Of a stretch of DNA of 26,075 nt, positions 5,309 to 26,075 are shown in pieces (position 1 is the stretch's first letter; each line of letters begins with the position of its first letter). A model generated the notes under the pieces. That model saw only the letters and a list, made by a program, of their open reading frames with translations, was not told the origin of the DNA and did no database searches. A program made the position numbers and the translations under genes. Origin of the DNA: a virus. The stretch is from positions 1 through 26,075 of IMG/VR virus record IMGVR_UViG_3300032294_002519, one strand, 5' to 3'.

Positions 5309-5315
5309 AATCTAT

Positions 5316-6947
5316 ATGAATAAAGTTGTCAAGTTTGGGCCTGAAGCCCGAAAGAAAATTGTTTCCGGTATTAATACAGTATCGGATGCTGTAACTGCTA
5401 CATTAGGTCCAAATGGACGAAATGTTATCTACACTGAATACGGTGAAGTTCGCAGTACAAAAGATGGAGTAACTGTTGCAAAACAAATCTCAAATTTAGA
5501 AGATCCGCTTGAAGAACTAGGTGCTCAAATGGTTAAACAAGCATCTATTAAAACAGCTAATAATGCTGGTGATGGAACTACTACATCTACACTTTTAGCT
5601 CAACACATGATTAATCAAGGTATCTCATATCTTGATAGAGGAGCAAATGCTGTAGAAATTAAACGTGGGATTGATTCTGCAGTTAAAGAAATAGTAACAT
5701 GTCTTAGAAGAGAAATATCCGAAGACATTACATCAGAAACTCAACTCGAACAAATTGCAACAATCTCAGCAAATAATGATCCAGCAATCGGAACATTAAT
5801 TGCCACAGCAATGGAAAAAGTAGGTCGCGAAGGTGTAGTTACAATTGAAGAATCAAAAACAGGAGAAACATATCTCGAAACAGTAGAAGGTATGCAATTT
5901 GATAGAGGATATAAGTCACATTACTTTGTTACTAATAACTCAGACATGACCTGTACCTTAGAAGATCCATTTATTTTGATTGCAGATCGTAAATTCAATC
6001 AAGTAAAAGATTTACTTCCAATCCTAGAAGGTGTTTCAGGAACAGGCAAATCATTACTTATTATTGCTGAGGATATTGATGGTGAAACATTATCTACTCT
6101 TATTGTAAATAAGATGAGAGGTACAATTAAAGTAGCAGCTGTTAAAGCTCCTGATTTTGGAGATCGCAGAAAACTTCTAATGGAAGACATGGCGGTTCTA
6201 ACTGGCGGCCAGGTATTCTCAAATGAAAAAGGAATGAAACTAGATAAGTTTTCTTGGGAGTGGTTTGGTAAAGCACGTTTAGTTACTATTACTAAAGATC
6301 AAACCACTATTGTTGATGGAAAAGGAGATACAAGCGCTATTGAAGCACGAATTGATGAACTACAAACTCAAATCGATAAATCTAATGTACCATTTGAAAA
6401 AGAAAAACTACAGGAACGTTTAGCAAAATTTATTGGTGGTGTAGCTATCATTCACGTAGGTGGAAATAGTGAATTAGAAATGAAAGAAACTAAAGATAGA
6501 GTTGATGATGCATTACATGCAACTAAAGCCGCTATCGAAGAAGGAATTGTTCCTGGTGGTGGTGCTGCTCTATTATACGCTCGAGAAGCAATCACTAGAT
6601 CACGCTCAGAATTAGATTCAGATGTTTATATTGGTAAACAAATTGTTTATAAAGCATGTGCTGCTCCATTTATGAAAATTTTAACAAATGCCGGATATAG
6701 TGAAGGTGAATGTTATGGGTTAATTAATGGATTAGAAGGAGACGATAATTGGAAAGGATATAATATCAAAACAGAAGCATATGAAAATATGAAAGATGCA
6801 GGTATTATTGATCCATCTAAAGTAACTCGTAATGCAATTGAAAATGCAGCTTCTATTGCTGGAACAGTATTATTGACTGAATCTGCTATTGTAGAAATTA
6901 ATTTAGATAAAGAATCCGAAGCATCAGGAATGCCAGGAATGTACTAA
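5316..6947 (+). CDS. groEL: Chaperonin GroEL (phage Cpn60)
   Basis: 543 aa, essentially full length (E. coli 548). ATP-site motifs are intact: [10 protein letters not shown] (28-37), TKDGVTVAK (D50), [13 protein letters not shown] (D86, equivalent to E. coli D87) and [15 protein letters not shown] with D398, the ATP-hydrolysis Asp, in register with E. coli. The apical domain holds LLPILEGV and [14 protein letters not shown], the hydrophobic face that binds substrate and GroES, and [11 protein letters not shown]. The C-terminus is SGMPGMY instead of a GGM-repeat tail, so the cavity floor may differ. It should form the double-ring folding chamber with the GroES encoded just upstream. It sits between the clamp and clamp-loader genes, hinting that its clients include phage replication or structural proteins (inference). 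Confidence 0.97.
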
Positions 6948-10040: not shown

Positions 10041-10235
10041 ATGGCAAAGGAACCAGGCACTCAGCTAACCTCAGTGAAAGTAGATAAAGACCTGTTTGAT
10101 GTCTTTAAAATAGAGTGCGTAAAGCGAAAATTTACTTTAAATAAGCTTGTCAATCGAACAATAGATTTATATCTTACCGATCCGGAATTTAGAAAACAAT
10201 TAACAAATCATATTAACCCAAACATTAAAGAATAA
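10041..10235 (+). CDS. Ribbon-helix-helix (Arc/MetJ-type) DNA-binding protein
   Basis: 64 aa from the ATG at 10041, chosen because it has the GTTATG context of other starts; an in-frame ATG at 10023 lies inside the octamer repeats. LTSVKVDKDLFDVFKI (9-24) is a strand followed by a helix, and FTLNKLVNRTIDLYL (31-45) is the second helix, the classic layout of ribbon-helix-helix dimers, with the strand TSVKV inserted into the DNA major groove. It is probably a transcriptional regulator, possibly of its own gene through the repeats just upstream. The stop codon overlaps the next start by 1 nt (TAATG), so the glycosyltransferase gene may be co-translated. Confidence 0.78.
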   Translation: MAKEPGTQLTSVKVDKDLFDVFKIECVKRKFTLNKLVNRTIDLYLTDPEFRKQLTNHINPNIKE

Positions 10236-11680
10236 TGAATTCAAGTTTTGCTTATTTACCTCAAAAAGAGAGGAAAAAAATCTTATTAATTTGCGATGAT
10301 CTCCGAGTACATTCAGGAGTAGCAACTGTTGCCCGCGAAATGGTACTCAATACATGTCAACATTTTAACTGGGTACAAGTTGCAGGAGCAATTAATCATC
10401 CTGAAAAAGGTAAAAGATTAGATCTATCTCAGGACACTAACACAAATACAGGTCTAACAGATTCATCTGTTCAGATTTATCCTGTAGATGGTTATGGAGA
10501 TCCTAATTTTATTCGTCAGCTAATTAAAATTGAAAAACCTGACGCTATCTTCCTTATTACAGATCCAAGATATTTTATGTGGCTATTTCAAATCGAAAAT
10601 GAAATTCGCCGTAAAATGCCTATTATTTATTTAAATATTTGGGATGACTATCCAGCACCTATGTATAATCGTCCATATTATGAAGCATGTGATGCGCTGT
10701 TAGGTATCTCAAAACAAACAGTCAACATTAATAAGTTAGTATTAGGTGATAAAGCAAAGGATAAATTAATTAAATATGTTCCTCATGGTTTAAATGAAGA
10801 TATTTTTAAACCAATTAAATCAACTGATGCTGAATATGGAGAATTAGTTAAATTTAAAAATCAAATCTTTAATGGAAAAGAATATGATTTTGTATTGTTC
10901 TTTAACTCAAGAAATATCCGTCGTAAACAAATTCCAGATACACTTTTAGCATATAAATACTTTATTGATTCATTACCTGAGGAAAAAGCTAAAAAATGTG
11001 CTTTCCTACTTCATACTCAACGTGTTGATGATAATGGAACAGATTTAAATGCAGTTTGTGAATTTTTATTTGATAATGATCCAAAATACAATATTGTATT
11101 TTCTGAAAAACCACTTCCGCCTCACCAAATGAATTATTTGTATAATATGTCTGATGCTCAGATTTTATTAACATCAAATGAAGGATGGGGTCTATCATTA
11201 ACAGAAGCATTATTAACTGGAAAATTAATTATTGCTAATGTTACAGGTGGAATGCAAGATCAAATGCGTTTTGTTAGAGATGGTAAGTGGATGGAAGTAG
11301 ATGCTGATTTTCCTTCAAACCATAATGGTACCTATAAAGAACATGGTGAGTGGGCTTTACCAGTTTATCCAACAAATAGATCAATTCAAGGTTCTCCAGT
11401 CACACCATATATTTGGGATGACCGCTGTACATCAGAAGATGCAGCTGCTCGAATTACTGAAGCATATAATATGTCAAAAGCAGAACGTGTAGAAAGAGGA
11501 TTAAAAGGTAGAGAATGGGCATTAAGTGATGAAGCAGGATTTACAGGTGAAAAGATGGGTCAACGTATAATCAATTATATAGATGAATTATTTTTAACTT
11601 GGAAACCTAGAAAAAACTTTGAACTTATCAATACTAAAAATACAGAAAAACGAGTTTTAAACCATAAATTAATTTACTAA
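10235..11680 (+). CDS. GT-B fold glycosyltransferase, GT4-like
   Basis: 481 aa. The N-terminal Rossmann half begins KILLICDDLRVHSGVATVA, an acceptor-loop pattern (SGVA). The C-terminal half carries VPHGLNEDIF (182-191), NSRNIRRKQ (224-232) and the nucleotide-sugar motif SNEGWGLSLTEALLTG with the E-x7-E pair (E316, E324) of GT4-type transferases. It should transfer a sugar from a nucleotide donor with retention of configuration. An extra segment around 358-398 contains an aromatic, Pro-rich loop. It is followed 1 nt later by a second GT-B enzyme, so the two probably act in series. No membrane anchor is visible; donor and acceptor are unknown. Confidence 0.9.
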   Translation: MNSSFAYLPQKERKKILLICDDLRVHSGVATVAREMVLNTCQHFNWVQVAGAINHPEKGKRLDLSQDTNTNTGLTDSSVQIYPVDGYGDPNFIRQLIKIEKPDAIFLITDPRYFMWLFQIENEIRRKMPIIYLNIWDDYPAPMYNRPYYEACDALLGISKQTVNINKLVLGDKAKDKLIKYVPHGLNEDIFKPIKSTDAEYGELVKFKNQIFNGKEYDFVLFFNSRNIRRKQIPDTLLAYKYFIDSLPEEKAKKCAFLLHTQRVDDNGTDLNAVCEFLFDNDPKYNIVFSEKPLPPHQMNYLYNMSDAQILLTSNEGWGLSLTEALLTGKLIIANVTGGMQDQMRFVRDGKWMEVDADFPSNHNGTYKEHGEWALPVYPTNRSIQGSPVTPYIWDDRCTSEDAAARITEAYNMSKAERVERGLKGREWALSDEAGFTGEKMGQRIINYIDELFLTWKPRKNFELINTKNTEKRVLNHKLIY

Positions 11681-11681
11681 T

Positions 11682-12986
11682 ATGAGCAAAAATAGTTGTG
11701 TAATCTACGCTCCTGTAGATACTCTAAGCGGATATGGCGCCCTAAGTAGAGATGTAGCCAAATCGATTATCGAATTGAAAAAAGAAGAATGGGATATTAA
11801 AATTATCCCATGCAATTGGGGAAATACAGCTTTAGGGTTTACAGATGAAAACCCAGAATGGAATTTCCTAAAACAATATTTTATCACAGGACAACTTACC
11901 TCTCAACCAGATATTTTTATTTGGATTACAGTACCAAATGAATTCCAAAAAGTAGGTAAATACAATATTGGTATTACTGCAGGATTAGAAACAGATCTAG
12001 TACCAGCCGATTGGGTTCAGGGTTGTAATAAAATGGATTTAGTATTAGTATCCTCAGAACATGGAAAAACAGGATTTGTAAATTCTAAATTTCAACAAGT
12101 TAATAATCAAACTCAACAAGTTGAAGCTAATATCGAATTAACAACTCCAGTTGAAGTATTATTTGCAGGTATGGATACTAATATCTATAAGTATTTAGAT
12201 AATCCTAATAAAGAAATTGGAGCATTAAATACTATTCCTGAAGATTTCGCTTATCTATTTGTAGGACATTGGCTACCAGGTGATGTAGGAGAAGATCGTA
12301 AAAATGTAGGTTTATTAATTAAAGCGTTTTTAGAAACATTTAAAAATAAAAAGAAAAAACCAGCATTGGTATTAAAAGTTAGTGTTGTAAGTCCATCTTA
12401 TATGGATAGAGATGAAATTCTTAAACGTATCAATATGATTCGTTCAACAGTAAATTCAACTGATTTACCAAATATCTATCTACTTCATGGTGAATTTACA
12501 AATGAAGAAATGAATGAAATTTATAATCATCCTAAAATTAAAGCTATGATTAGTTTAACTAAGGGTGAAGGATTTGGTTTACCATTACTTGAATTTACTC
12601 AAAGTAAAAAACCAGTTATTACAACAAATTGGAGTGGACATATTGATTTCCTTAAAAAAGAATTTACTCCACTAGTTGAAGGTACATTAACAAATGTACA
12701 TCCAAGTGCTGCTAATAGTATGTTATTGAAAGAATTTAAATGGTTCTCTCCTGATTTAGGTCAAGTAGGATTTTATTTAAAGGATGTGTTTGAAAATTAT
12801 AAAAATTATATTGACGGAGCAAAACGTCAAGCATATTTTGCTAGAACAAATTTCTCATTTGAAAAAATGACTGAAAAAATAGCTGAATATTTTACTCGTA
12901 TTCCTGAATTTCCTAAACAAGTTCAATTAAAACTTCCACAATTGAAGAAAATTGAATTACCTAAATTAAAGAAAGTAGAATCATGA
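11682..12986 (+). CDS. GT-B fold glycosyltransferase, GT4-like, with a repetitive Lys-rich tail
   Basis: 434 aa. The N-terminus has PVDTLSGYGALSRD (11-24), the glycine-rich acceptor loop, then CNWGN and a central VGHW (194-197). The C-terminal donor site is TKGEGFGLPLLEF (293-305) with the E296-x7-E304 pair. DRKNVGLLIKAF (205-216) matches the RKN segment of this family. The last 20 residues repeat LPxLKKxE twice, a basic tail that may bind a membrane, nucleic acid or partner. It overlaps the next gene by 4 nt (ATGA). The substrate cannot be read from the sequence; together with the preceding gene it starts the glycan block. Confidence 0.88.
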   Translation: MSKNSCVIYAPVDTLSGYGALSRDVAKSIIELKKEEWDIKIIPCNWGNTALGFTDENPEWNFLKQYFITGQLTSQPDIFIWITVPNEFQKVGKYNIGITAGLETDLVPADWVQGCNKMDLVLVSSEHGKTGFVNSKFQQVNNQTQQVEANIELTTPVEVLFAGMDTNIYKYLDNPNKEIGALNTIPEDFAYLFVGHWLPGDVGEDRKNVGLLIKAFLETFKNKKKKPALVLKVSVVSPSYMDRDEILKRINMIRSTVNSTDLPNIYLLHGEFTNEEMNEIYNHPKIKAMISLTKGEGFGLPLLEFTQSKKPVITTNWSGHIDFLKKEFTPLVEGTLTNVHPSAANSMLLKEFKWFSPDLGQVGFYLKDVFENYKNYIDGAKRQAYFARTNFSFEKMTEKIAEYFTRIPEFPKQVQLKLPQLKKIELPKLKKVES

Positions 12987-13951
12987 AAACAGCCCTAATT
13001 ACGGGTATCAATGGTATGGATGGAAGTCACCTAGCTGACTTCCTCCTCACCAAAGGATACAAAGTATATGGAATGGAACGAAGAAGTTCTTCCAAAAATC
13101 GTACTAATACTGCTCATTTAGAAGGAAAAATAACTTTTGTAGATGGAGATCTAACTGATCAAAATAGTTTACTTCGGATCTTAAAAGAATCTAATCCTGA
13201 TGAAGTATATAATTTAGCAGCTCAATCATTTGTAGGACAAAGTTGGCAAACTCCTGAACATACCTCAGAAGTAACCGGATTAGGTGTATTACGAATGCTA
13301 GAAGCGATTCGAGAATACAATAAAAATATTAGATTTTATCAAGCATCTTCATCTGAAATGTTTGGTCGAATGGTTGAAAACCCAGCAAATGAAAATACTC
13401 CATTTTATCCTAGATCTCCATATGGTGTAGCTAAATTATATGGACATTGGATTACTAAAAATTACCGTGAATCATATAATATGTTTGCTTGTAGTGGTAT
13501 CTTATTTAATCACGAAAGTGAAAGAAGAGGTATTGAATTTGTTACTCGAAAAATTACAGATGGAGTAGCTAAAATTCATCTTGGTTTAGCAGATCATATT
13601 TCATTAGGAAATCTAGAAGCTAAAAGAGATTGGGGATATGCTCCTGATTATGTAGAAGCAATGTGGTTAATGTTACAGCAAGAAACAGCAGATGATTATG
13701 TGATTGCAACTGGTGAAACTAGATCAATTAAAGATTTTTTAGATGAAGCTTTTAATCAAATTGGAATCCCAGATTGGTCTTCGTATATTAAACAAGATCC
13801 TAAATTCATGAGACCAGCAGAAGTTGATGTATTAAGAGGAGATTATAGTAAAGCTAAATCTCAACTTAATTGGATACCAAAAACTAGTTTTAGTGAAATG
13901 GTTAAAAAAATGGTTACAAACGATATTGAATTAATAAAAAATCAATTATGA
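12983..13951 (+). CDS. gmd: GDP-mannose 4,6-dehydratase
   Basis: 322 aa, an extended short-chain dehydrogenase. NADP-binding TGINGMDGSHL (7-17; Gly 8, 11, 14), MERRSSSKNRT (31-41), DGDLTDQNSL, YNLAAQSFVGQSW (76-88), the ASSSEMFG motif (catalytic Ser/Glu; S123/S124, E125), SPYGVAKLYGHW with Y147 and K151, and the diagnostic FNHESERRGIEFVTRKI, all typical of Gmd. The enzyme converts GDP-mannose to GDP-4-keto-6-deoxy-mannose, the precursor of GDP-fucose, GDP-rhamnose and GDP-perosamine. I see no GDP-fucose synthase nearby, so a host enzyme or one of the downstream epimerases must act next. It is somewhat shorter than most bacterial Gmd (about 350-370 aa), mainly at the C-terminus. ATGA overlaps both sides. 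Confidence 0.95.
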   Translation: MKTALITGINGMDGSHLADFLLTKGYKVYGMERRSSSKNRTNTAHLEGKITFVDGDLTDQNSLLRILKESNPDEVYNLAAQSFVGQSWQTPEHTSEVTGLGVLRMLEAIREYNKNIRFYQASSSEMFGRMVENPANENTPFYPRSPYGVAKLYGHWITKNYRESYNMFACSGILFNHESERRGIEFVTRKITDGVAKIHLGLADHISLGNLEAKRDWGYAPDYVEAMWLMLQQETADDYVIATGETRSIKDFLDEAFNQIGIPDWSSYIKQDPKFMRPAEVDVLRGDYSKAKSQLNWIPKTSFSEMVKKMVTNDIELIKNQL

Positions 13952-14406
13952 CTGATAATTTAACAACCTGTCCTCATTGCGGGTCTGATGCCTGTTATGT
14001 AGTGGAAAATTCTTCTGAAATTAAAACATACTCATGTTTTGGATGTGGTTTTACAACTAATTCACTAATGAAAGAAGGTGAAGAATTTTATGAACAACAA
14101 CTAGAAGTACTGCCTGAACTTTACAAAGATGTAATGTTTGAAGATGAAAATGGTTTGAAATGGATGCCTACCACCATTAATATCCCTACTAAAGGAATGA
14201 TATTCTATAATGGTACAAATCCACAAGATGCTAAATGGGCAGGAGTATTAGCTGTAGAAGTATTAGAAGAAGAAAAAGAAAAATATCCTATCAAAAATAA
14301 ACCTGGTCAATATTATACCCACAGAATGGATATGACTTCCATGAAACCATTTGAAATGAAAGAATTTATGGATGCTCTAACTTATATTGGAGTTTTACCA
14401 GAGTAA
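13948..14406 (+). CDS. Zinc-ribbon protein of unknown function
   Basis: 152 aa. The N-terminus holds a four-cysteine zinc ribbon: CPHC (C8, C11) and CFGC (C30, C33), followed by GF. The remaining 115 residues are acidic and mixed, with WMPTTINIPTKGMIFYNG, WAGVLAVEVLEEEKEK and a helical end (MKEFMDALTYIGVLP). I do not recognise the C-terminal domain. It overlaps gmd by 4 nt and is the last gene before a promoter-like element, so it belongs to the first glycan block. A zinc ribbon often binds nucleic acid or mediates protein contacts; nothing shows which applies here. Confidence 0.7.
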   Translation: MTDNLTTCPHCGSDACYVVENSSEIKTYSCFGCGFTTNSLMKEGEEFYEQQLEVLPELYKDVMFEDENGLKWMPTTINIPTKGMIFYNGTNPQDAKWAGVLAVEVLEEEKEKYPIKNKPGQYYTHRMDMTSMKPFEMKEFMDALTYIGVLPE

Positions 14407-14437
14407 TTAGGATTACAAAAAGAATTTTTTTATATTT
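14407..14437 (+). promoter_or_regulatory. Promoter-like element P3 (TTAGGATT-N16-TATATTT)
   Basis: TTAGGATT (14407-14414) begins right after the stop codon of the zinc-ribbon gene, and TATATTT lies at 14431-14437, 24 nt start to start. This is one of the cleanest copies in the window. The next ATG (14455) is 17 nt beyond the second box. It would drive the AT-rich sugar module. Confidence 0.75.
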
Positions 14438-14454
14438 AAAATAAAAAATAAGTT

Positions 14455-15096
14455 ATGAAAATTAGCTATGCTATTTTAACTCATAATGAAGGAGAATACA
14501 TACAAAATTTAATCCCATTCCTTCTAAAAAACAAACAATCTATAGACGAAATTGTAGTAGTTGATGATTTCTCAGATGATTATTTAACTAAAGAAATTTT
14601 AGATAAATATAAAGATCAAATTATTTTAAAGTATAGAGAATTTGACGGAGATCATACTCAAAAAAACTATTTAAATAGTTTATGCTCAGGAGATTATATA
14701 GTACAACTAGATGCTGATGAATTAATAACTGAAGAATTAATAGAAATTCTTCCTGGATTTTTAGAAGATAATTCTAATGTTGATTTATTCATTACACCTC
14801 GTATTAATACTGTATTAAATTTAACTAAAGAATGGATTGATAGATGGGGATGGAAAGTTAATGAAAAAGGATGGGTAAATTATCCTGATTGGCAGATGCG
14901 TATTTATAGAAATTGCGATTGGATAAAATGGGAAGGTTTACTTCATTCTAAAATAAAAGGATATAAAACATATGCTAATTTACCTATGGATGAAATGTAT
15001 TCTATAATTCATTGTAAACAATTAGATAGACAAATTGAACAAAATGAATTATATGATAAAATTGAAGCTAATGGGCGTAAAAAATATAAAGTTTAA
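14455..15096 (+). CDS. GT-A fold glycosyltransferase, GT2-like
   Basis: 213 aa. The N-terminus ISYAILTHNEGEYI (3-16) and IVVVDDFSDD (33-42) are the nucleotide-binding start of GT2 enzymes. The DXD metal motif is QLDADELIT (D86, D88). The pattern HTQKNYLNSLCSGDYIVQLDADE resembles WaaE/KdtX-like transferases of lipopolysaccharide core synthesis, but the protein is shorter than WaaE and lacks its C-terminal extension. First gene after promoter-like element P3. Acceptor unknown. Confidence 0.88.
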   Translation: MKISYAILTHNEGEYIQNLIPFLLKNKQSIDEIVVVDDFSDDYLTKEILDKYKDQIILKYREFDGDHTQKNYLNSLCSGDYIVQLDADELITEELIEILPGFLEDNSNVDLFITPRINTVLNLTKEWIDRWGWKVNEKGWVNYPDWQMRIYRNCDWIKWEGLLHSKIKGYKTYANLPMDEMYSIIHCKQLDRQIEQNELYDKIEANGRKKYKV

Positions 15097-15098
15097 AT

Positions 15099-15773
15099 AT
15101 GAATAAATTTTTAATTATAACTGCTAATTTGGGTGGAAAAGATAATCTGATTGATCCTCCTAAAAAATTTGATAATTGTGATTATATAGCTATTGTTGAT
15201 AAAAAATATAATGTTAATATTTGGGAACAATTTGGATGTTTTGATTTTTCAAATATAGATAATTTTAAATTTAGAAGAAATGCTAAATTATATAAAGTAC
15301 TAACTACATTAATATTTCCCCAATATGAATATATTATTTGGCATGATGCTAACCATCAATTAAAAGTAAATCCTGAAGAAATATTAGAAGAATATGGTGA
15401 GTTTGATTTATTATTATTTAACCATCCTCATAGAAACTGTTGCTACAAAGAAATGGAATTAGTAGCAGGAAGATTAGATAACCAACAAAACATAACCCAG
15501 CAATATAATTACTACTTAGAACAGGGAATGCCAAGAGAATTTGGATTATATGAAATGACTTCTTATATTAAAAAAAATAGTAGCATAATTACTAATCTTG
15601 AACTAATGTGGTGGGAGCAAATATGTAAGTTTAGTTCCAGAGATCAATGTAGCTTTACTTATTGTTTATGGAAATTAGGAAATACTTTAAATGTTAAAAC
15701 TTTTGAGGGATATGCTAATTTGTATGCTGGAGGTAATAAGTATCTTAATGAGCAAGAAGGACATTTAAACTAA
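15099..15773 (+). CDS. DUF616/TOD1-like putative glycosyltransferase
   Basis: 224 aa. The motif LYKVLTTLIFPQYEYIIWHD followed by ANHQL (D83, with WHDANHQL at 81-88) matches the core of DUF616/TOD1/MUCI70-type proteins, where a K-x3-I/L-x-P...W-x-D segment resembles a GT-A metal site. LLLFNHPHRNCCYKEM and SFTYCLWKLG are further conserved-looking blocks. Members of this group are linked to polysaccharide synthesis, so a sugar transferase role is likely but less sure than for its neighbours. It begins 2 nt after the preceding gene and is followed 5 nt later by the amidotransferase gene. Confidence 0.6.
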   Translation: MNKFLIITANLGGKDNLIDPPKKFDNCDYIAIVDKKYNVNIWEQFGCFDFSNIDNFKFRRNAKLYKVLTTLIFPQYEYIIWHDANHQLKVNPEEILEEYGEFDLLLFNHPHRNCCYKEMELVAGRLDNQQNITQQYNYYLEQGMPREFGLYEMTSYIKKNSSIITNLELMWWEQICKFSSRDQCSFTYCLWKLGNTLNVKTFEGYANLYAGGNKYLNEQEGHLN

Positions 15774-15778
15774 TAAAT

Positions 15779-17107
15779 ATGTGTAGTATTCTATTTTCCA
15801 CTAAAACCTCAGATAATATAGAAGATTTAAATTATTATTTAAAATTCAGAGGTCCAGACTATACAGAATCAAAAATTATAAATAATAATTTATTTATTCA
15901 TAATTTATTATCCATTACAGGTGAATTTACACCACAACCTTATCAAGAAGATAATATTGTTTTAATATATAATGGGGAAATTTATAATTATAAAGAATTT
16001 GGAAATTATAAATCTGATGGAGAATGTTTAATTCCTCTTTATAAACAATATGGATCTGATTTTATAAGAAAATTAGATGGAGAATTTGCTATATGCTTAG
16101 TTGATTTTAATACTAATCAAGCAATAATTAGTTCAGATATTTTTAGAACTAAACCATTATTTTTAGGTATAGATAATGATAAAATAGGTTGTGCTAGTTA
16201 TAAGACACCTTTAGAAAAATTAGGATATAAAAATATTGAAAAAACTAAACCCAATACTATTTATACTATTTGTTTAAAAACAAATCAAATACTCAAACAA
16301 GAAATTATTTATGAGTTTGATTTAAAACAACATAAAACATCATATGATGATTGGGTTATAGCTTTTGAAAATTCTATTAAAAAACGAATTAAAAATACTG
16401 ATAAGAATATTTTTATAGGATTAAGCAGCGGATATGATAGCGGATTAATATTTTCAGAATTAATAAAAAATAAACATCATTTTTTCTCATTTAGTTTAAT
16501 GGGAAGTGAAAATGAAAAAATAATATATGATAGAATAGCTTTAAAAAACTCAGAAGCAGAATGTTATACTTTAAATAAAAACAACTATGATTATGAGTAT
16601 TCCCATCAATTAATCCATCAAAATACAGAACCATTTTATTATACTATATACTCGAGTACTAGTGGTTATAATGAATTTCATACATTATTAATTAATGATG
16701 CTGGGTCAAATAATTTTGCCACAGTATGTAGAGCAGCTAAAACATTTGACTGCAAAATATGCTTATCAGGAACTGGAGCAGATGAAATAATATCTGATTA
16801 TGGGTTTAATGGAGTAAAAATGTTTAATCATAGTAATTTTGGAGGAAAATTTCCAGAAGATTTAAGTACTATATTTCCGTGGGCTAGTTTTTATGGGTCA
16901 ACTTTAGAATCATATATAGCTAAAGAAGAATATGTTGGTGGTAGTTTTGGAATTGAAATGAGATACCCATTTTTAGATAAAGATTTAGTACAAGAATTTT
17001 TATGGTTACATCAAGATTTAAAAAATAAAGAATATAAAGCACCAATAGATAACTATTTTCTTAAAAATAATTATCCATTTGAAAAACAAATTAAACGAGG
17101 ATTTTAA
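15779..17107 (+). CDS. asnB: Asparagine synthase-like glutamine amidotransferase (short form)
   Basis: 442 aa, versus about 550 for standard AsnB. The N-terminal glutaminase domain starts with the nucleophile Cys2 (MCSILFST), RGPD (24-27) and YNGEIYN (64-70). The C-terminal synthetase domain has the PP-loop LSSGYDSG (215-222), LSGTGADEIISDYG and MRYPFLDKDLVQEF, and ends in KRGF. The motif HNLLSITG (41-48) puts Leu43 where E. coli AsnB has Arg49, a residue that binds glutamine. Cys2, the Asn-Gly-Glu and the Asp after the NGE block are kept, so the glutaminase may still work, or the enzyme may use ammonia. AsnB relatives in surface-sugar clusters often amidate sugars instead of aspartate; the substrate here is unknown. 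Confidence 0.88.
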   Translation: MCSILFSTKTSDNIEDLNYYLKFRGPDYTESKIINNNLFIHNLLSITGEFTPQPYQEDNIVLIYNGEIYNYKEFGNYKSDGECLIPLYKQYGSDFIRKLDGEFAICLVDFNTNQAIISSDIFRTKPLFLGIDNDKIGCASYKTPLEKLGYKNIEKTKPNTIYTICLKTNQILKQEIIYEFDLKQHKTSYDDWVIAFENSIKKRIKNTDKNIFIGLSSGYDSGLIFSELIKNKHHFFSFSLMGSENEKIIYDRIALKNSEAECYTLNKNNYDYEYSHQLIHQNTEPFYYTIYSSTSGYNEFHTLLINDAGSNNFATVCRAAKTFDCKICLSGTGADEIISDYGFNGVKMFNHSNFGGKFPEDLSTIFPWASFYGSTLESYIAKEEYVGGSFGIEMRYPFLDKDLVQEFLWLHQDLKNKEYKAPIDNYFLKNNYPFEKQIKRGF

Positions 17108-17108
17108 T

Positions 17109-17696
17109 ATGAAAAAAAAGAATTTAATCCAAATTGGATGTAATGAAGGAAATGACCATGTTTTTGATTTTGTAAAAGATAATTATCAAGATTTAGATCA
17201 AATATTTTTAATTGATGCTAATGATAAATGTTATGATAAAATAAAAGATCAATATGGTAAATTTCCTATAAATTATGAATTTATACACTTAGCATTAGTC
17301 CCTGAATATGATATAAATGAAGTTATTTTTTATAGAGGAATATATGAATATTGCGCTCATGGATCTTTAAAGAAAAATCATTTAATAGAGCACCACCATG
17401 ATTTAGATAAAATTTTTGAATTTACAGTTCCTGCCAAAAATATAAATGTATTATTCAAAGAAAAAAATTTATCTATAATTGATTATTTATTTATAGATAT
17501 TGAAGGTATGGATGTAGATATAATAAATTCAATTAATTTTAATGAATTTGAAATAAATTATATTCAATTTGAACATGTTCATTCTGATGGAACACATTCT
17601 AATGGAGGAAATAAATTAAGAGAATGTCTTAATAAAATAAAAGATGTATATAATATTAATTTTAACGGAGGAGATTGTATTTTAATAAAAAAATAA
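17109..17696 (+). CDS. FkbM-type SAM-dependent methyltransferase (first of three)
   Basis: 195 aa from the ATG at 17109, one base after the preceding stop; a TTG upstream in the same frame is not favoured. SAM-binding motif I is LIQIGCNEG (6-14), and IDYLFIDIEGMDVDII (124-139) carries the Asp-Ile-Glu-Gly motif typical of FkbM-family methyltransferases, which O-methylate sugars and macrolides. EHVHSDGTHSNGG lies near the C-terminus. Two further FkbM-type genes follow directly. Coding sequence is conspicuously AT-rich. Confidence 0.8.
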   Translation: MKKKNLIQIGCNEGNDHVFDFVKDNYQDLDQIFLIDANDKCYDKIKDQYGKFPINYEFIHLALVPEYDINEVIFYRGIYEYCAHGSLKKNHLIEHHHDLDKIFEFTVPAKNINVLFKEKNLSIIDYLFIDIEGMDVDIINSINFNEFEINYIQFEHVHSDGTHSNGGNKLRECLNKIKDVYNINFNGGDCILIKK

Positions 17697-17708
17697 AAAA
17701 TTTTAATC

Positions 17709-18311
17709 ATGATAAAATATATTAATGAAATATCCAATATTAAAGGAATTATCCAAATAGGAGCAAATTCAGGACAAGAAGTAGGATATTTCTCCCAATT
17801 AACAAATAATATAATATTAATTGAGCCTATTCCTCAATTGGCTGAGTATTTAAAAAAAGCATATCCTAACTATACAGTGCTACAATATGGTTTAGGATCT
17901 ACTAATGAAACAATGGATCTACATATCGCTTCAAATAATGGAGAATCATCATCAGTACTTAAACCACTTAATCACCCTAAATACTATCCAGATATATTAT
18001 TTGGACAATCTATTCAAATTCCAATTAGGACATTTGAATCATTAATAGATGAACTTCATATTAATATAAATAATTTTAATATATTAGTATCAGATACTCA
18101 AGGGTATGATTTAGAAGCTATTAAAGGATTTAAACACCACATAAATAATTTTGAATTGATTATAGCAGAGTATATAAACTCAAATTTATACGAAAATGAT
18201 GCTTCATTAGATGATATGATTAATTATTTAACTCCTTTAGGATTTCAACTAATAGACACATTTGATGAAAATATAGGAGCAGGGAACGCAGTATTTAAAA
18301 AAATAATATGA
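17709..18311 (+). CDS. FkbM-type SAM-dependent methyltransferase (second of three)
   Basis: 200 aa. SAM motif I is GIIQIGANSGQEVGYF (13-28), the acidic strand is ILIEPIPQ (36-43), and the FkbM signature is LVSDTQGYDLEAIKG (126-140). The region with KYYPD resembles loop segments in other family members. It probably O-methylates a sugar of the glycan made by this block. It has an ATGA overlap with the following methyltransferase. Sequence similarity to the neighbouring two genes is limited to the motifs, so these look like diverged family members, not recent copies. Confidence 0.87.
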   Translation: MIKYINEISNIKGIIQIGANSGQEVGYFSQLTNNIILIEPIPQLAEYLKKAYPNYTVLQYGLGSTNETMDLHIASNNGESSSVLKPLNHPKYYPDILFGQSIQIPIRTFESLIDELHININNFNILVSDTQGYDLEAIKGFKHHINNFELIIAEYINSNLYENDASLDDMINYLTPLGFQLIDTFDENIGAGNAVFKKII

Positions 18312-18865
18312 AAAAAATTATATTAGATTGTGGATCACATTTAGGTGAATCTGTTAGAAAATTTAAGCAAGAACTAGGAAAAACAGACTATGAATTTCAT
18401 ATGTTTGAACCTAATATTTTCTTATTTGAACAAATTAACACCAACCCAGAATTTGAAAATTGTAAAAAATATAACAATGCTGTTTCAAATAAATATGAAA
18501 TAGTTAAATTTTGGGGATGTACTAAAAATAAAAATAGTGTTGGATCAACATTAGAAAAATCTAAAGCAAATTGGGATGGTATAACAGAAGATGATTATAT
18601 TGAAATACAAGCTATTAATTTATCTGAATTTATTCAAAATAATTTTTCTAAAGAAGACTATATTATTTTAAAATTAGATATTGAAGGAGCAGAATACGAT
18701 GTGTTAGATAAATTACTTGAAACTAACATAATAGAATACATTGATGAATTATATTGTGAATTTCACACTCAATGGTTATCTCCAGAATTTGCTCAAAGAG
18801 AAGATAATTTAAGAAAGAAATTAAAAGAAATTAATTTACAAATAAACTATTGGGATGCCTTATGA
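18308..18865 (+). CDS. FkbM-type SAM-dependent methyltransferase (third of three)
   Basis: 185 aa. SAM motif I is IILDCGSHLGESV (4-16), the acidic strand MFEPNIFLFEQI (32-43) and the signature KLDIEGAEYDVLDKLL (122-137) is a textbook FkbM block. The C-terminal helix is charged. ATGA overlaps with both neighbours imply tight co-expression. Likely sugar O-methylation; the target hydroxyl cannot be inferred. Confidence 0.88.
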   Translation: MKKIILDCGSHLGESVRKFKQELGKTDYEFHMFEPNIFLFEQINTNPEFENCKKYNNAVSNKYEIVKFWGCTKNKNSVGSTLEKSKANWDGITEDDYIEIQAINLSEFIQNNFSKEDYIILKLDIEGAEYDVLDKLLETNIIEYIDELYCEFHTQWLSPEFAQREDNLRKKLKEINLQINYWDAL

Positions 18866-19899
18866 AAATATTAATAACAGGAGCCGGTGGACTTATAGGA
18901 TCTGAAGCTGTAGAATATTATTGTATTCAAGGATATAAAACTTATGGAATTGAGAACAATCAACGTCAAATATTCTTTGGAGAAAAAGGAAGTACTTTAT
19001 CTCGTCTTAATCAATTAAAAAATAAATATTCTAATTTTACTAATTTTGAAATTGATATAAGAGATAAACAATCCATTTTAAATTTATTTAAACAAATAAA
19101 ATTTGATGTAGTAATTCATACCGCAGCTCAACCTTCTCATGATAAAGCAGCTTCTATTCCTTTTGATGATTTTGAAACAAACGCTAATGGTACATTGCAT
19201 TTATTGGAGGCAACTAGACAAACAAATAAAGATTGTATTTTTATCCATATGTCAACTAATAAAGTATATGGAGATAAACCAAATACTTTAAATTTAATTG
19301 AATTAAATACTAGATATGATTATACTGATTCTGAATATAGAAATGGGATTAATGAGGATTTCTCAATAGATCAATCTAAACATAGTTTATTCGGAGCTAG
19401 TAAAGTAGCAGCTGATATATTAGTTCAAGAATATGGTCAATATTTTGGGATACCTTCATGCGTTTTAAGAGGAGGATGTTTAACAGGAGAAAATCATAGT
19501 GGAGTAGAATTACATGGATTTTTAAATTATTTAGTTAAATGTAATATTCAAGAAACTAAATATAATATATTTGGTTATAAAGGTAAACAAGTAAGAGATA
19601 ATATTCATTCATCAGATGTTATTCAATTTATGGATTTATTTATAGCTAATCCTAGAATTGCTGAGGTCTACAATATAGGTGGAGGTAAAGAAAACTCATG
19701 TTCTATATTTGAGGCTTTTAATTTAACAGAACAGATAACAGGTAAAAAAATGATATATGAATATGTTGATGAGAATAGAATAGGAGATCATATTTGTTAT
19801 TATAGTGATTTATCTAAAATGAAAGAGCATTATCCTGAGTTTGGAATTACTAAAAATCTTAATTATATTATTGAAAATATTAGTAAAAAATTAATTTAA
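18862..19899 (+). CDS. CDP-paratose 2-epimerase-like NAD-dependent sugar epimerase
   Basis: 345 aa from the ATG at 18862 (ATGA overlap); the upstream TTG is not favoured. NAD-binding TGAGGLIGS (6-14), MSTNKVYGDKPN (130-141), SIDQSKHSLFGASKVAAD (168-185), LRGGCLTGENHSGVELHGF and FGYKGKQVRDNIHSSDV are typical of the CDP-paratose/tyvelose epimerase-like branch of short-chain dehydrogenases. F177 with K181 occupies the usual Tyr-x3-Lys position; by recollection, this branch commonly carries Phe there, unlike most epimerases. It acts on an activated sugar; whether a CDP-linked or another 6-deoxy or dideoxy sugar is not readable. Confidence 0.85.
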   Translation: MKILITGAGGLIGSEAVEYYCIQGYKTYGIENNQRQIFFGEKGSTLSRLNQLKNKYSNFTNFEIDIRDKQSILNLFKQIKFDVVIHTAAQPSHDKAASIPFDDFETNANGTLHLLEATRQTNKDCIFIHMSTNKVYGDKPNTLNLIELNTRYDYTDSEYRNGINEDFSIDQSKHSLFGASKVAADILVQEYGQYFGIPSCVLRGGCLTGENHSGVELHGFLNYLVKCNIQETKYNIFGYKGKQVRDNIHSSDVIQFMDLFIANPRIAEVYNIGGGKENSCSIFEAFNLTEQITGKKMIYEYVDENRIGDHICYYSDLSKMKEHYPEFGITKNLNYIIENISKKLI

Positions 19900-19900
19900 T

Positions 19901-20758
19901 ATGAGAAAAACAATTATATTTTGTGATGGTGGTTTAGGAAATAGATTAAATAGTTTATTAGGTGGTCTTTTTATAGCTGAACAAACTAAATCTACTCCTA
20001 TAATATGTTGGCCTGAAAATAATTGGTGTAGGTGTAGTTTTGAAGATTTATTTATTACTGATATTAAAATTATTAATAATAATATTAATGATATTTTTGA
20101 AAGTAATATTGATAACATATTTTTAATACATGAAAATCAAACTAAATTTGATTTAAATAAACAGTATAATCATACTTTAGAATCAATACATGATATTTTA
20201 AATAAAAATGAAGATATAATTTATTACCATAACATTTTACCTTCATACATCAATATAAGTTTTGTTTTAGATAAATTAAAAAATTTAAAAATTAAAACTA
20301 AAATATTAGATCAAGTACAAGCATTCATAAAAGAAAATAATATAAATAAAGATACACATGGTATCTTATTTAGAAAAACAGATTATTCTTCTAACCCCAA
20401 TATTAGTCTAAATGACAATGAAATATATAACCACATAAAATCAGATCTAAATCTAAAATATTATATATGCTCAGATGATAAAGATACTGAAGATAAATTT
20501 AATGAATTAGAAAATGTATTTGTTTATCCTAAGACTAGTTATGTTAAAAAATTTAAAGAAGGTGAATGGAATGATCTTATCACAGATAATGAGGGAAGAT
20601 TAAATAATTTTAATGTTGATAGACCCAGACAATCTGTTATTGAAGCATTTATAGGTTTATTAATATTATCTCAAACTAATATAATTGTAGATATACCTAG
20701 TACATTTTTACATTTTGCTAAGTATTATAGTTATACAAATATTTTAAATAATAAATAA
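19901..20758 (+). CDS. Fucosyltransferase-like protein (GT-B, GT11/GT23-type features)
   Basis: 285 aa. It begins FCDGGLGNRLNSLLGG (7-22), the glycine-rich donor loop typical of O-fucosyltransferase, NodZ and alpha-1,2-fucosyltransferase superfamilies. GILFRKTDY gives a basic Arg/Lys where those enzymes have HxRRxD, and a YICSDD motif and SVIEAFIGLLILSQT with a following Ser/Thr-rich segment match the C-terminal donor site. A fucosyltransferase would fit the GDP-mannose dehydratase encoded at 12983. The gene is extremely AT-rich. Substrate assignment is tentative. Confidence 0.68.
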   Translation: MRKTIIFCDGGLGNRLNSLLGGLFIAEQTKSTPIICWPENNWCRCSFEDLFITDIKIINNNINDIFESNIDNIFLIHENQTKFDLNKQYNHTLESIHDILNKNEDIIYYHNILPSYINISFVLDKLKNLKIKTKILDQVQAFIKENNINKDTHGILFRKTDYSSNPNISLNDNEIYNHIKSDLNLKYYICSDDKDTEDKFNELENVFVYPKTSYVKKFKEGEWNDLITDNEGRLNNFNVDRPRQSVIEAFIGLLILSQTNIIVDIPSTFLHFAKYYSYTNILNNK

Positions 20759-20763
20759 AAATT

Positions 20764-21297
20764 ATGATTAAAACAACTTTATCAAAAGAAGTACTATTGA
20801 AGTATTTAAACCCTTATTTTTTAGAAACAGGAACAGCTAATGGAGATTGTGTTCAATTAGCGTTAGAATTAGGATTTGAAAAAATATTTAGTATTGAGTT
20901 AGATGAAAGTCTACAAAAAGAAAATATTCAAAAATATCAATCTTTTGTTGACGAGCAAAAAATTAACCTAATAACAGGAGATTCATTATGGGAATTATCT
21001 AACATTATTTCATCTTTAGATAAACCAACCACATTTTGGTTAGACGCCCATCAAGATTATGGACCAGTTGGAACTAAAAGATGCCCACTATATGAAGAAC
21101 TCTCAGCTATAAAAACAAGCGATATTAAAACTCATACTATTCTAATTGATGATATGAGAATGTTAGGGCATTGGTGGGGAGAAGGAATTGATATAGATGG
21201 ATTAAAAAATAAAATTTTAGAGATTAACCCTAATTATAAATTTACTTTTGAAGACAATGAATTTGCTCAAAATGATATATTAGTAGCTTATTTATAA
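20764..21297 (+). CDS. Methyltransferase-like (class I SAM fold) protein
   Basis: 177 aa. FLETGTANGDCVQLALELG (19-37) is a motif I-like G-x-x-x-G loop, IFSIELDE (41-48) the following acidic strand, and FWLDAHQDYGPVG (91-103) and ILIDDMRML (127-135) carry the Asp residues seen in sugar O-methyltransferases of this fold. WGEG appears near the C-terminus. It is not an FkbM protein. Tight spacing to neighbours on both sides (5 and 4 nt) places it in the glycan operon. Confidence 0.68.
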   Translation: MIKTTLSKEVLLKYLNPYFLETGTANGDCVQLALELGFEKIFSIELDESLQKENIQKYQSFVDEQKINLITGDSLWELSNIISSLDKPTTFWLDAHQDYGPVGTKRCPLYEELSAIKTSDIKTHTILIDDMRMLGHWWGEGIDIDGLKNKILEINPNYKFTFEDNEFAQNDILVAYL

Positions 21298-21301
21298 AAA
21301 T

Positions 21302-22150
21302 ATGAACATATTAGTAACAGGCGGTGCAGGTTTTGTTGGTACAAATTTAATTAAATCATTATTAGAAAAAAACCATACTGTTTACTCTTTAGATGATTAC
21401 TCAACTGGGTTAAAAGAAAATGAAATCCCAAGATGTCATTATATAGTAGGTGATATTCAAAATATAAATAATATTTGGGAAAACATAGATATTGTTTACC
21501 ATCTAGCTGCTAGAGCTAGAATCCAACCTTCATTTGAACATCCAGAAGAGTACATCAGAACTAATTTTGAAGGTACTTATGCTGTTGTTAAATATTGCAT
21601 TAAAAAGAATATACCTTTAATATATGCTGGATCTTCTTCGAAGCATAGTGGTAAATTTAAGAATCCATATACTTTTAGTAAAGATCTAGGAGAAGAAATT
21701 ATTCAATTATATCAAGAACATTATGGTTTAAAAGCAACTATTACTAGATTTTATAATGTATATGGTCCTAATCAATTGCTAGAAGGAGGATATACTACAT
21801 TAATAGGTAGATGGCTTAACAATATTAAAAAAGGAGAACAATGCTATATATATGGGGATGGAGAACAACGAAGAGATTTTACCCATGTCTCAGATATAGT
21901 TAATGCTCTTATTTTAATAATGGAACAACAAACATATGGGTATGAGTTTGAATTAGGAAAAGGTAAAAATTACTCTGTTAATGAAGTAGCTCAAATGTTA
22001 AGTATTAAACCTATATACCAACCCGCTAAAAAAGGAGAAGCAGAAGTAACTTTAAATACAAGTACTTTAGCTCAAAATAAGCTAAATTGGATCCCAATTT
22101 GTGATTTAGAAGATTATATAAAAAACTTTTTAAATGAAAATAATTTATAG
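21302..22150 (+). CDS. NAD-dependent nucleotide-sugar epimerase/dehydratase (GalE-like)
   Basis: 282 aa, an extended short-chain dehydrogenase. ILVTGGAGFVGTNL (3-16; GxxGxxG 7/10/13), LDDYSTGLKEN (30-40), YHLAARARIQPS (66-77), AGSSSKHSG (S111-S113) and NPYTFSKDLGEE with Y123 and K127, the catalytic Tyr/Lys pair. RFYNVYGPNQ and RDFTHVSDIVNA match UDP-glucose 4-epimerase-type enzymes. It interconverts or dehydrates a nucleotide sugar and probably supplies a donor to the transferases nearby. It overlaps the next gene by 17 nt. The exact sugar is unknown. Confidence 0.88.
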   Translation: MNILVTGGAGFVGTNLIKSLLEKNHTVYSLDDYSTGLKENEIPRCHYIVGDIQNINNIWENIDIVYHLAARARIQPSFEHPEEYIRTNFEGTYAVVKYCIKKNIPLIYAGSSSKHSGKFKNPYTFSKDLGEEIIQLYQEHYGLKATITRFYNVYGPNQLLEGGYTTLIGRWLNNIKKGEQCYIYGDGEQRRDFTHVSDIVNALILIMEQQTYGYEFELGKGKNYSVNEVAQMLSIKPIYQPAKKGEAEVTLNTSTLAQNKLNWIPICDLEDYIKNFLNENNL

Positions 22151-22829
22151 AATAAGTGATGCCGGTTATAAAAAAGTAAAACCAAATTACATTAATAATG
22201 AAAATTGTTTAAAAAATGCTTTACAAGTATTTCCTTGGACAGAATATGATTGGTCTATTATAGCAGATAATATATCTGAAAGTACAAATAATATGATTCA
22301 AAAATATATCCCTAGAGATCATATTAATTATGTTTCTGTAGGACATGGAGCTGGAACATTTAATTTAGCATTAGATGAAGCACTTCAAAGTCCTGATAAT
22401 GAAATTATTTATTTTTTAGAAAATGACTATCTACATAAACCAGGAGCAGATAAAATAATACTTGAAGGATTTAATTTAGGGGCATCATTTGTATCACCTT
22501 ACGACCACCCAGATAAGTATATGATACCTGAAAATGGAGGTAATCCGTATTGTGAAGGTGGAGCTGAAGACACTAGAGTGTATCTAACTGATTCTTGTCA
22601 TTGGAAAATTACAAATTCAACTACAATGACATTTGCTTCTAAAGTATCAACTTTAAAAAAAATTGAACCCATTTTAAGAAAACATACAGTCGGAACTCAT
22701 CCGTATGATTTTCAGATGTTTTTAGAATTAAGAGAAAATAATGAATTATTGGTAACTCCAATACCAGGATACGCTACTCATGGAGAAACATATTGGTTAT
22801 CACCTCTAACAGATTGGAGCAAAATATGA
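22134..22829 (+). CDS. Putative glycosyltransferase-like protein
   Basis: 231 aa. IIYFLENDYLHKPGA (90-104) resembles the acidic metal site of GT-A enzymes, and the central stretch SPYDHPDKYM, then SCHWKITNSTTMTFASK and the end GYATHGETYW are distinctive blocks I associate with uncharacterised sugar-cluster proteins, but I cannot name a family. It overlaps the epimerase by 17 nt and the following GT2 by 4 nt, so it almost certainly functions with them. Confidence 0.55.
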   Translation: MKIIYRISDAGYKKVKPNYINNENCLKNALQVFPWTEYDWSIIADNISESTNNMIQKYIPRDHINYVSVGHGAGTFNLALDEALQSPDNEIIYFLENDYLHKPGADKIILEGFNLGASFVSPYDHPDKYMIPENGGNPYCEGGAEDTRVYLTDSCHWKITNSTTMTFASKVSTLKKIEPILRKHTVGTHPYDFQMFLELRENNELLVTPIPGYATHGETYWLSPLTDWSKI

Positions 22830-23578
22830 TTTCAGTAATTATACCAACATATAAAGAACCAGAAGTTCTTGATCTATGTCTTCAATCATGTATTGAAGGT
22901 CAACAAAATAAAAATCAAATTATTGTAGTTGTTGATGGATTTTATGATTTAAATAAAGAAGTACTTGAAAAATGGTCTGATTATATTGATATCTTAAATT
23001 TAGAGGAAAATGTTGGTTTAACTAAAGCTACTAATTTAGGAGTATATAATGCTCAATATGATAAAATTCTCATTGTGAATGATGATAATGTATTTCAAAA
23101 TAGATGGGATATCAGACTAGAAGAAATCTACCAACCCAATTCAGTTATAGCTCCTAATGAGATTGAACCTTATCCTTCTATGTTTAGACAAAAACATATT
23201 GAGGATTTAGGACGAGATCCTAAAACATTTGATTTAAAACAATTTTGGGAATTTTGTGATAAAATAGAAAAAAATGTTACTATTGAAGAAGGATCTACTT
23301 TACCTATTTTTATGTCTAAAATAGATTATTTAAAGGTAGGAGGATGGGATGAATACTATGATCAAGGTATGGTTGCAGATTGGGATTTCTTTTTAAAATG
23401 TCAACTCTCAAATTTTAAAATGCTTAGAACATACAATTGTCACTTCTGCCATTTCACCTCAATTTCAGTAAACGGAGAAAAAAGAAAACAAGCAGAAGCA
23501 AATGGTTTTGAATATTCTAAATATAAATGGGGTTCTTATATAAAACATAATCCTATAAATAATTTAAAATTTCTTTAA
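22826..23578 (+). CDS. GT-A fold glycosyltransferase, GT2 family
   Basis: 250 aa from the ATG at 22826 (ATGA overlap); an in-frame TTG upstream is not favoured. MISVIIPTYKEPEVLDLCL (1-19), IIVVVDGF (32-39), LNLEENVGLTKATNLG (57-72), the DXD site IVNDDNVF (D86, D87) and KVGGWDEYY followed by VADWDFFLKCQL are a full GT2 motif set. The ending CHFCHFTSIS has several cysteines and histidines of unknown purpose. Last gene of the AT-rich sugar block; its stop codon lies just before promoter-like element P4. Confidence 0.92.
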   Translation: MISVIIPTYKEPEVLDLCLQSCIEGQQNKNQIIVVVDGFYDLNKEVLEKWSDYIDILNLEENVGLTKATNLGVYNAQYDKILIVNDDNVFQNRWDIRLEEIYQPNSVIAPNEIEPYPSMFRQKHIEDLGRDPKTFDLKQFWEFCDKIEKNVTIEEGSTLPIFMSKIDYLKVGGWDEYYDQGMVADWDFFLKCQLSNFKMLRTYNCHFCHFTSISVNGEKRKQAEANGFEYSKYKWGSYIKHNPINNLKFL

Positions 23579-24487: not shown

Positions 24488-25135
24488 ATGCCAGCGCCTA
24501 AACCATTAACTAAAGAACAGATTTTGATGGCAATGCGTAATACAAAATCAAATAAAGCTGCAGCCAGATTCTTAAATGTATCTTATATTCATTATAAGAC
24601 GTGGGCGAAACGTTATCATGAAGTAGAAGGAGGTAGATCGTTATTTGAAGCTCATAAAAATCAAAGTGGTAAAGGTATTCCTAAATTTTTAGCACAAGGA
24701 TTTAAAAAGAGTAATTGGAATGTAATTGACGTAATTGAAGGTAGAATTTCACCTAACCACTTTAAGCCTGATGAAATTAAGAAACGAATGATCCATGATG
24801 GATATTTGAAGGAAGAATGTGCTATGTGTGGATTTCATGAGCGTCGAGTAAATGATTATAAAATACCTCTTATATTAAATTTTAAAGATAATAATCCTAA
24901 TCATTATAATCTAGGTAATATTCGATTTTTATGTTATAATTGTTATTTTCTTAATATTGGAAATATCTTTAATAAACAAGATATCAAGCAACTTGAAACT
25001 CACAATCCAACAAACGGAACTAGTGAAGAAATAGATTTTCAATTAGATGATTTCCAAAAAGAACAATTAGCTAGATTAGGATTATATGATCCACCAAAAC
25101 CAGATGATGGTTCTGAACTTATATCTAGATGGTAA
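24488..25135 (+). CDS. HNH-like zinc protein with helix-turn-helix and degraded catalytic residues
   Basis: 215 aa. Residues 18-43 (KSNKAAARFLNVSYIHYKTW) form a helix-turn-helix-like unit. Residues 111-152 hold the HNH scaffold: CAMC (C111, C114), the LNFKDNNPNHYN stretch, NLGNIRFLCYNC (C149, C152). In active HNH nucleases a His stands in the DHID-like segment and another after the second CxxC (often NCH). Here the segment reads NFKDNN and the end reads NCYFLN, so key catalytic residues are missing while zinc ligands and the central Asn are retained. It may bind DNA without cutting. Acidic tail of 30 residues. No association with an intron or with a split gene is seen. Confidence 0.65.
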   Translation: MPAPKPLTKEQILMAMRNTKSNKAAARFLNVSYIHYKTWAKRYHEVEGGRSLFEAHKNQSGKGIPKFLAQGFKKSNWNVIDVIEGRISPNHFKPDEIKKRMIHDGYLKEECAMCGFHERRVNDYKIPLILNFKDNNPNHYNLGNIRFLCYNCYFLNIGNIFNKQDIKQLETHNPTNGTSEEIDFQLDDFQKEQLARLGLYDPPKPDDGSELISRW

Positions 25136-25639: not shown

Positions 25640-25780
25640 ATGGCAAAATTAAAAGATAGCTCAACTCGTTTCGCAGAAAAACCTCATGTTAAACGCCCTG
25701 GTGTTCATAGTAAAAAGAAAACTAGTGTTTTGAAATCAAGTAAAAATTATAGAAAACTTTACCGAGGACAAGGAAAATGA
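25640..25780 (+). CDS. 46-aa basic protein, unknown
   Basis: 46 aa, ATG at 25640, TGA at 25778-25780, sharing an ATGA overlap with the next start. Very Lys/Arg/Ser-rich, e.g. HVKRPGVHSKKKTSVLKSSK, ending LYRGQGK. It has no hydrophobic core and probably binds nucleic acid or an acidic partner, or is disordered. It sits in the same block as two tag-bearing proteins and is preceded by TATTTATTATAAAA (25627-25640). I recall similar tiny basic proteins in large Bacteroidota phages but cannot verify it. Confidence 0.6.
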   Translation: MAKLKDSSTRFAEKPHVKRPGVHSKKKTSVLKSSKNYRKLYRGQGK

Positions 25781-25983
25781 AAAAATCAGATTTGCAGCAA
25801 ATAATCAAAGAGGAAATTCAAAAGATACTGCAAGAGGAAGAAAAAATGTCTTCTGAAGAATGGAGCAGTATGACACCTGAGAGAAGAATAAAATTTTTAT
25901 GGAATAAATACCATGTAGTTAATGCTTATGACTATAAAGACAAGAGTTGGGAAGAGGTAAAAAAAGAACTAAAGATAAAATAA
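25777..25983 (+). CDS. Short protein with N-terminal LQQIIKEEIQK tag (first of two)
   Basis: 68 aa. The first 21 residues (MKKSDLQQIIKEEIQKILQE followed by E) form an amphipathic helix. The remainder has WSSMTPERRIKFLWNKY and a C-terminal VKKELKIK helix. The next gene repeats the same N-terminal peptide with 16 of 21 residues identical, but the bodies differ as far as can be seen. The tag ends L-x-E, which is the T4 prohead-protease consensus ((L/I)xE), so it could be a capsid-targeting peptide that is cut off after packaging. That is inference from pattern only. Confidence 0.6.
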   Translation: MKKSDLQQIIKEEIQKILQEEEKMSSEEWSSMTPERRIKFLWNKYHVVNAYDYKDKSWEEVKKELKIK

Positions 25984-25988
25984 CAGAA

Positions 25989-26075
25989 ATGAAAAAAGTA
26001 CAATTGCAACAAATCATTAGAGAGGAAATCCAAAAAGTACTCAACGAAGAGAATCAATACAAACACTATCAAGTC
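25989..26075 (+). CDS. Protein with N-terminal LQQIIREEIQK tag, C-terminus outside window (second of two)
   Basis: The first 29 codons are visible; the gene runs off the right edge. The start MKKVQLQQIIREEIQKVLNE matches the previous gene's tag (16 of 21 identical), and codons differ at several synonymous positions, so this is an old duplication or a shared module, not a recent copy. The visible part beyond the tag is NQYKHYQV. Function unknown. Confidence 0.55.
   Translation, partial: MKKVQLQQIIREEIQKVLNEENQYKHYQV

Follow-up and report, generated by a model that had tools for sequence, protein, structure and literature searches.

Two adjacent genes at the end of the window, the whole 26,075-base stretch of phage DNA analysed here, start with a common 20-residue peptide and then run into different sequences. 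We propose, with a probability of about 85%, that this peptide (tag A) is a capsid-targeting propeptide on hypervariable internal-head cargo, its packaging and cleavage being predicted from sequence comparison. A propeptide of this kind, cut after LxE, had been suggested by an earlier sequence-only reading, and the comparative evidence supports it: unrelated bodies behind the tag, a sharp boundary after Glu20, a retained (L/I)xE, a gp21-type protease in relatives, exchange of cargo between tags at the predicted cut or close to it, and a further tag (tag B) whose sequence reproduces the scaffold C-terminus.

The window tags follow the consensus MKK..LQQII(K/R)EEIQK(I/V)L(Q/N)E (Table 1). The 16 of 21 shared residues reported earlier for these adjacent genes were confirmed, as were the divergence of the bodies after the tag and the LxE ending of both tags, which lies at residues 18-20. 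Comparison of the 21 codons revealed 8 identical, 8 synonymous and 5 non-synonymous pairs; the eight synonymous differences indicate that selection has kept the peptide rather than the DNA, and that the pair is not a fresh duplication.

Table 1. Coordinates of the tagged genes, their parts and related features (window positions unless a locus is named)
Feature	Position	Strand	Remarks
Tagged gene 1	25777-25983	+	68 aa; starts MKKSDLQQIIKEEIQKILQEE
Tagged gene 2	25989 onward, contig end cuts ORF	+	Starts MKKVQLQQIIREEIQKVLNEE
Tag A, copy 1: MKKSDLQQIIKEEIQKILQE	25777..25836	+	Predicted cut after E20
Body (cargo) of tagged gene 1	25837..25983	+	48 aa plus stop; orphan sequence
Tag A, copy 2: MKKVQLQQIIREEIQKVLNE	25989..26048	+	Predicted cut after E20
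Body 2 start, ENQYKHYQV, cut by contig end	26049..26075	+	
46-aa gene ending YRGQGK	25640..25780	+	Conserved in relatives, where it marks the left edge of the variable slot for tagged genes
HNH-type gene	24488..25135	+	Syntenic anchor; 51-79% identity to relatives
(S/G/A)KQVG.LYHFT...SFTRNKN...EERI family	L047:3033-3707, L057:481-1122, L074:6442-6978, L075:17159-17665		Leader ends in LxE in each of the nine aligned members

A search for further tag genes was also suggested earlier. Within this phage it covers the length of the window record, where none of the approximately 38 other genes (e.g. polymerase, GroEL, glycosyltransferases) has a tag A start. In IMG/VR, a degenerate DNA pattern for tag A matched 72 further stretches, all at ORF starts with differing continuations; the same pattern had no match in 84,980 prokaryote species genomes. 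A tblastn search of the phage collection with the tag had no hits, probably because so short and low-complexity a query is filtered. The tag is hosted by uncultivated T4-like phage contigs, and each of 22 larger ones has between 1 and 14 matches, frequently in small genes that follow one another in tandem. With a looser pattern, tag A heads 121 mutually unrelated body clusters; this pattern imposed no LxE requirement, while part of the set came via a seed pattern that includes LxE. As the pattern recurs in IMG/VR and 121 body clusters carry it, the similarity of the two window tags is not due to chance. Pfam and PHROGs gave almost solely weak single hits for the cargo, and nearly all bodies are orphans.

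Ten relatives of the tagged locus were retrieved via the window HNH gene. In L255-L258, L260 and L261 the HNH protein is 72-79% identical and the gene order around it is the same as in the window. A slot following a 45-48 aa gene that ends in QG(K/R) holds 1-5 tag-A genes in the six syntenic relatives, with mostly phage-specific bodies. No tag A was found at this slot in three more distant relatives (HNH 51%), and the remaining relative (L259) stops short of it. The slot that the window tagged genes occupy is hypervariable: the tag stays constant, and the cargo genes behind it are exchanged between phages. Elsewhere in the window, consecutive genes of sugar/surface-modification type (glycosyltransferases, epimerases, FkbM-like; roles assigned by eye from translations) occupy positions 10235-23578, between the replication genes and the tagged locus. 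The phage has GroES and GroEL genes of its own at 5018-6947, as does the phage immuto at 40295-42237.

Alignment of 117 tags in strict register revealed a column entropy that stays low through residue 20 and is about 4 bits at residue 22 and beyond. Leu18 and Glu20 are strongly conserved (96/117 and 100/117), residues 15-16 and 19 vary, and (L/I)xE occupies residues 18-20 in 96 of the 117 tags. Since LxE belonged to the seed pattern used for part of the set, the count was repeated on the 70 tags outside that pattern, which gave Glu20 in 53 and (L/I)xE at residues 18-20 in 49. Among the 21 tags with no LxE at this position, 12 have an (L/I)xE within residues 15-36, more than the 5.5 ± 1.9 of shuffled sequences (p = 0.0014); examples are ILAQPLNE^N, KQQLRE^G, QQLTE^S and FKKLTE^S (^, predicted cut). 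Nine of the 117 tags (about 8%) have no (L/I)xE in residues 15-36. Tag A also contains an internal I-x-E at residues 10-12, so the cut could fall there instead.

A protease suited to such a site is encoded by relatives. The head cluster of one contig (G002) has Pfam matches to a T4-type terminase (TerL), Portal_T4 (1.1e-68), Peptidase_S77 (1.8e-29) and Gp23 (2.6e-72). Peptidase_S77 was found in 9 of the 22 tag-bearing contigs, in G023 and G024, the two large contigs that share synteny with the window, and also in immuto, Mel-JY01, RM378 and T4. This gp21-type (S77) protease is encoded by the tag-bearing contigs that extend into the head cluster; those with no match are mostly short and may stop before the head genes. 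The window is a fragment with no head genes, so that the protease of its own phage is inferred from these relatives. Alignment to T4 revealed a glutamate at the position of the T4 maturation site E65 in every gp23 of the clade, mostly within [I/V/L]xE, with the contexts LISE, LITE, IVSE, LVSE, LVTE, LVME, LVVE and HLME. The P3 residue of the gp23 site is often valine, not leucine or isoleucine, which suggests that valine is tolerated there, as in a few tags.

Homologous cargo was found behind tags A and B and behind tag C, a leader of 10 residues (MIKLIDLLNE), with the junction at the predicted scissile bond or close to it. A script listed 13 cargo families with differing leaders, three of which retain an A-like partner as judged by eye (L149, L142 and L151). 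In nine of the other ten families, at least one partner has [LIV]xE no more than two residues from the extrapolated junction, whereas comparable windows further into the proteins contain it at a rate of 5.6% each; in several families the junctions coincide to no better than two residues. The EKIPFF cargo stands directly after LNE^ whether the leader is tag A (L108) or tag B (L177, L240). The immuto gene at 24569 has tag C (LLTE^) and its homologue L036 has tag A. Two untagged homologues, L174 and L147, begin with methionine at the junction. The cargo domain D(I/L)D(V/I/L)GH.D(N/D)EP.M(L/I), which follows tag A in L032:2747-3211, is also internal to larger ORFs in L206, L225, L171, L069 and L248, often directly after x-x-E.

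The clearest junction occurs in the (S/G/A)KQVG.LYHFT family, whose leader is tag A in L057, tag C in L047 and L074, and a longer variant in other members. The glutamate preceding the cargo is invariant in 9/9 aligned members and the junction is exact in 8/8 partners. Five of the nine members match Tox-ART-HYD1 (best 1.3e-6) and one matches KptA, all weak matches, and comparison with a PDB sequence profile gave a weak match to DarT (E = 0.98); the AlphaFold2 model has a pLDDT of 72.9. We tentatively regard the family as ADP-ribosyltransferase-like, and by analogy with T4 Alt it is a candidate injected effector.

Tag B is common in tag A phages among the matches listed, at ORF starts of the form M(x)nLxE^xFxRMQKLAG(I/L)ITE^. 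Its core, RMQKLAGIITE, is the motif found at the extreme C-terminus of the gp22 scaffold, encoded by the ORF immediately upstream of gp23, with tails such as ...PIVESNEAYLRMQKLAGII and ...EIISEVSEQVSRWQKLAGIIK. The LAG is kept in 11 of 12 gp22 sequences. Comparison of tag B with the gp22 tail by hhalign yielded E = 2.4e-10 (96.8%). The tag B HMM, run against whole genomes, independently recovered the gp22 tail in immuto, G001, G002, G003 and Mel-JY01. In a 128-aa ORF on the - strand (L014), tag B (RMQKLAGI) is continued by the latter half of tag A (MSKQILNEEFYRMQKLAGILIKEEIKKVLKE), a hybrid leader that suggests one pathway for both tags; the tag A part of this leader reads LIKEEIKKVLKE. The idea that tag A itself copies the N-terminal helix of gp22 was rejected, with an hhalign probability of 1.2% over 5 columns. 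Another shared N-terminus, M(E/A)(N/D).F(D/N)L(K/R).FL.EN(K/R)LT.N..L(L/I)xE, is present on at least four immuto proteins (L248, L249, L251; immuto genes at 1803, 103806, 117631 and 118632) and is probably a further tag family.

Tag A might instead be a permanent, uncleaved helix for docking or coiled-coil formation, serving oligomerisation or binding to a phage or host hub. Its hydrophobic positions 6, 9, 10, 14, 17 and 18 do fit an amphipathic helix, and cleavage is a prediction. However, Glu20 is conserved as well as the hydrophobic core while the other polar positions vary across the 117 tags, and (L/I)xE survives when the tag end is rearranged, which points to a protease site, since a bare helix has no such need. 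The meeting of differing tags with the same cargo at or near LxE, and the copying of the scaffold C-terminus by tag B, also argue against a permanent helix, and we consider it quite improbable. Far more remote is the view that the tandem genes are plain duplicates, diverged except for a functionless N-terminus. It would account for the tandem layout and for the similar tags within one genome, but homologous cargo is found with other tags or none, and the unrelated bodies in 121 clusters, together with the synonymous codon differences that show selection on the peptide, led us to reject simple gene duplication.

A different question is whether the tagged proteins are core or scaffold components that aid head building and are retained or degraded, rather than ejected effectors. 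Tag-like leaders do occur within the head cluster, one between protease and scaffold (G003, 101483) and one adjoining the terminase (G004, 5534), and T4 gp67 provides the precedent of a core protein that is cleaved (PMC9026906). Most tagged genes, however, are small, strain-variable and arranged in tandem islands that differ between near relatives, so that accessory cargo fits better than assembly parts; we judge a core or scaffold role unlikely, with some chance of holding.

Under the propeptide reading, a newly made cargo protein would dock through its amphipathic N-terminal helix on the prohead core or the inner shell during head assembly. The gp21-type prohead protease would then cut after (L/I)xE at residues 18-20 and free the mature cargo inside the head, from where it would probably enter the next host together with the DNA and act there. 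As nearly all bodies are orphans, an effector role is guesswork, save for the ADP-ribosyltransferase-like family with its weak Pfam match. We lean slightly towards a broader proposal of a modular encapsidation code, in which N-terminal zip codes of several interchangeable kinds, among them a copy of the scaffold C-terminal tail flanked by protease sites, would mimic scaffold docking and load a large, fast-exchanged arsenal that the head protease frees for injection. The scaffold-tail tag is the least expected part of the finding; it suggests a binding partner for such tags and makes the question of docking during head assembly testable. The tags could provide a sequence handle for injected proteins, candidate anti-defence or takeover effectors that are otherwise orphan ORFs, in many uncultivated T4-like phages, and could be used to load proteins into phage heads.

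The nearest named relatives by gp23 are immuto (Immutovirus, a Flavobacterium phage; 56%), Microcystis phage Mel-JY01 (50%) and Rhodothermus phage RM378 (35%). In all three gp22 ends in an LAG(I/L) tail. Immuto has tag B genes plus A-like leaders, the latter degenerate, whereas Mel-JY01 has at best one marginal match to tag A and RM378 has none. Literature searches on the tag strings and on virion proteomics or N-terminal sequencing of the clade, of incomplete coverage, found nothing relevant.

In T4, the capsid-targeting sequence (CTS) is 10-19 residues long and is cleaved at L/I-x-E, and the IPs and Alt are ejected (PMC9026906, PMC12373910). The protein docks on the core through its leader, gp21 cuts it, and the mature form is injected together with the DNA; Alt is an ADP-ribosyltransferase located in the T4 head (PMC9026906). 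Similar to the CTS of IPI, IPII, IPIII and Alt, tag A is a short N-terminal peptide, the predicted propeptide, on unrelated small proteins and ends in (L/I)xE, with a gp21 protease in the phages (here in relatives), hypervariable cargo, and one ADP-ribosyltransferase-like family as a putative counterpart of Alt. The T-even ip genes encode unrelated inhibitors that have in common the N-terminal capsid-packaging leader alone and lie in a genomic hotspot (PMC12373910); the window slot likewise has varied bodies behind a shared leader. Unlike the T4 CTS, tag A has 20 residues, more than 100 bodies and up to 14 matches per contig, and occurs alongside tag B, the copy of the scaffold tail. The earlier claim that the tag is unlike any T4 sequence was borne out at the HMM level: the tag HMM had no match to T4 at E <= 1, and homology to the IPI/IPII/IPIII CTS family was not found. 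In the giant phages phiKZ, 201phi2-1 and SPN3US, a gp21-related protease likewise cleaves N-terminal propeptides from head proteins, cutting at x-x-E (PMC5694885, PMC9026906), but these are mostly long (more than 100 residues in SPN3US) with A/S-x-E specificity, whereas the tags described here have 10-20 residues and end in (L/I/V)-x-E. In the best reading, tag A resembles the T4 CTS in function, as it has the features tested, bears no sequence relation to it, and would represent a new family of propeptides.
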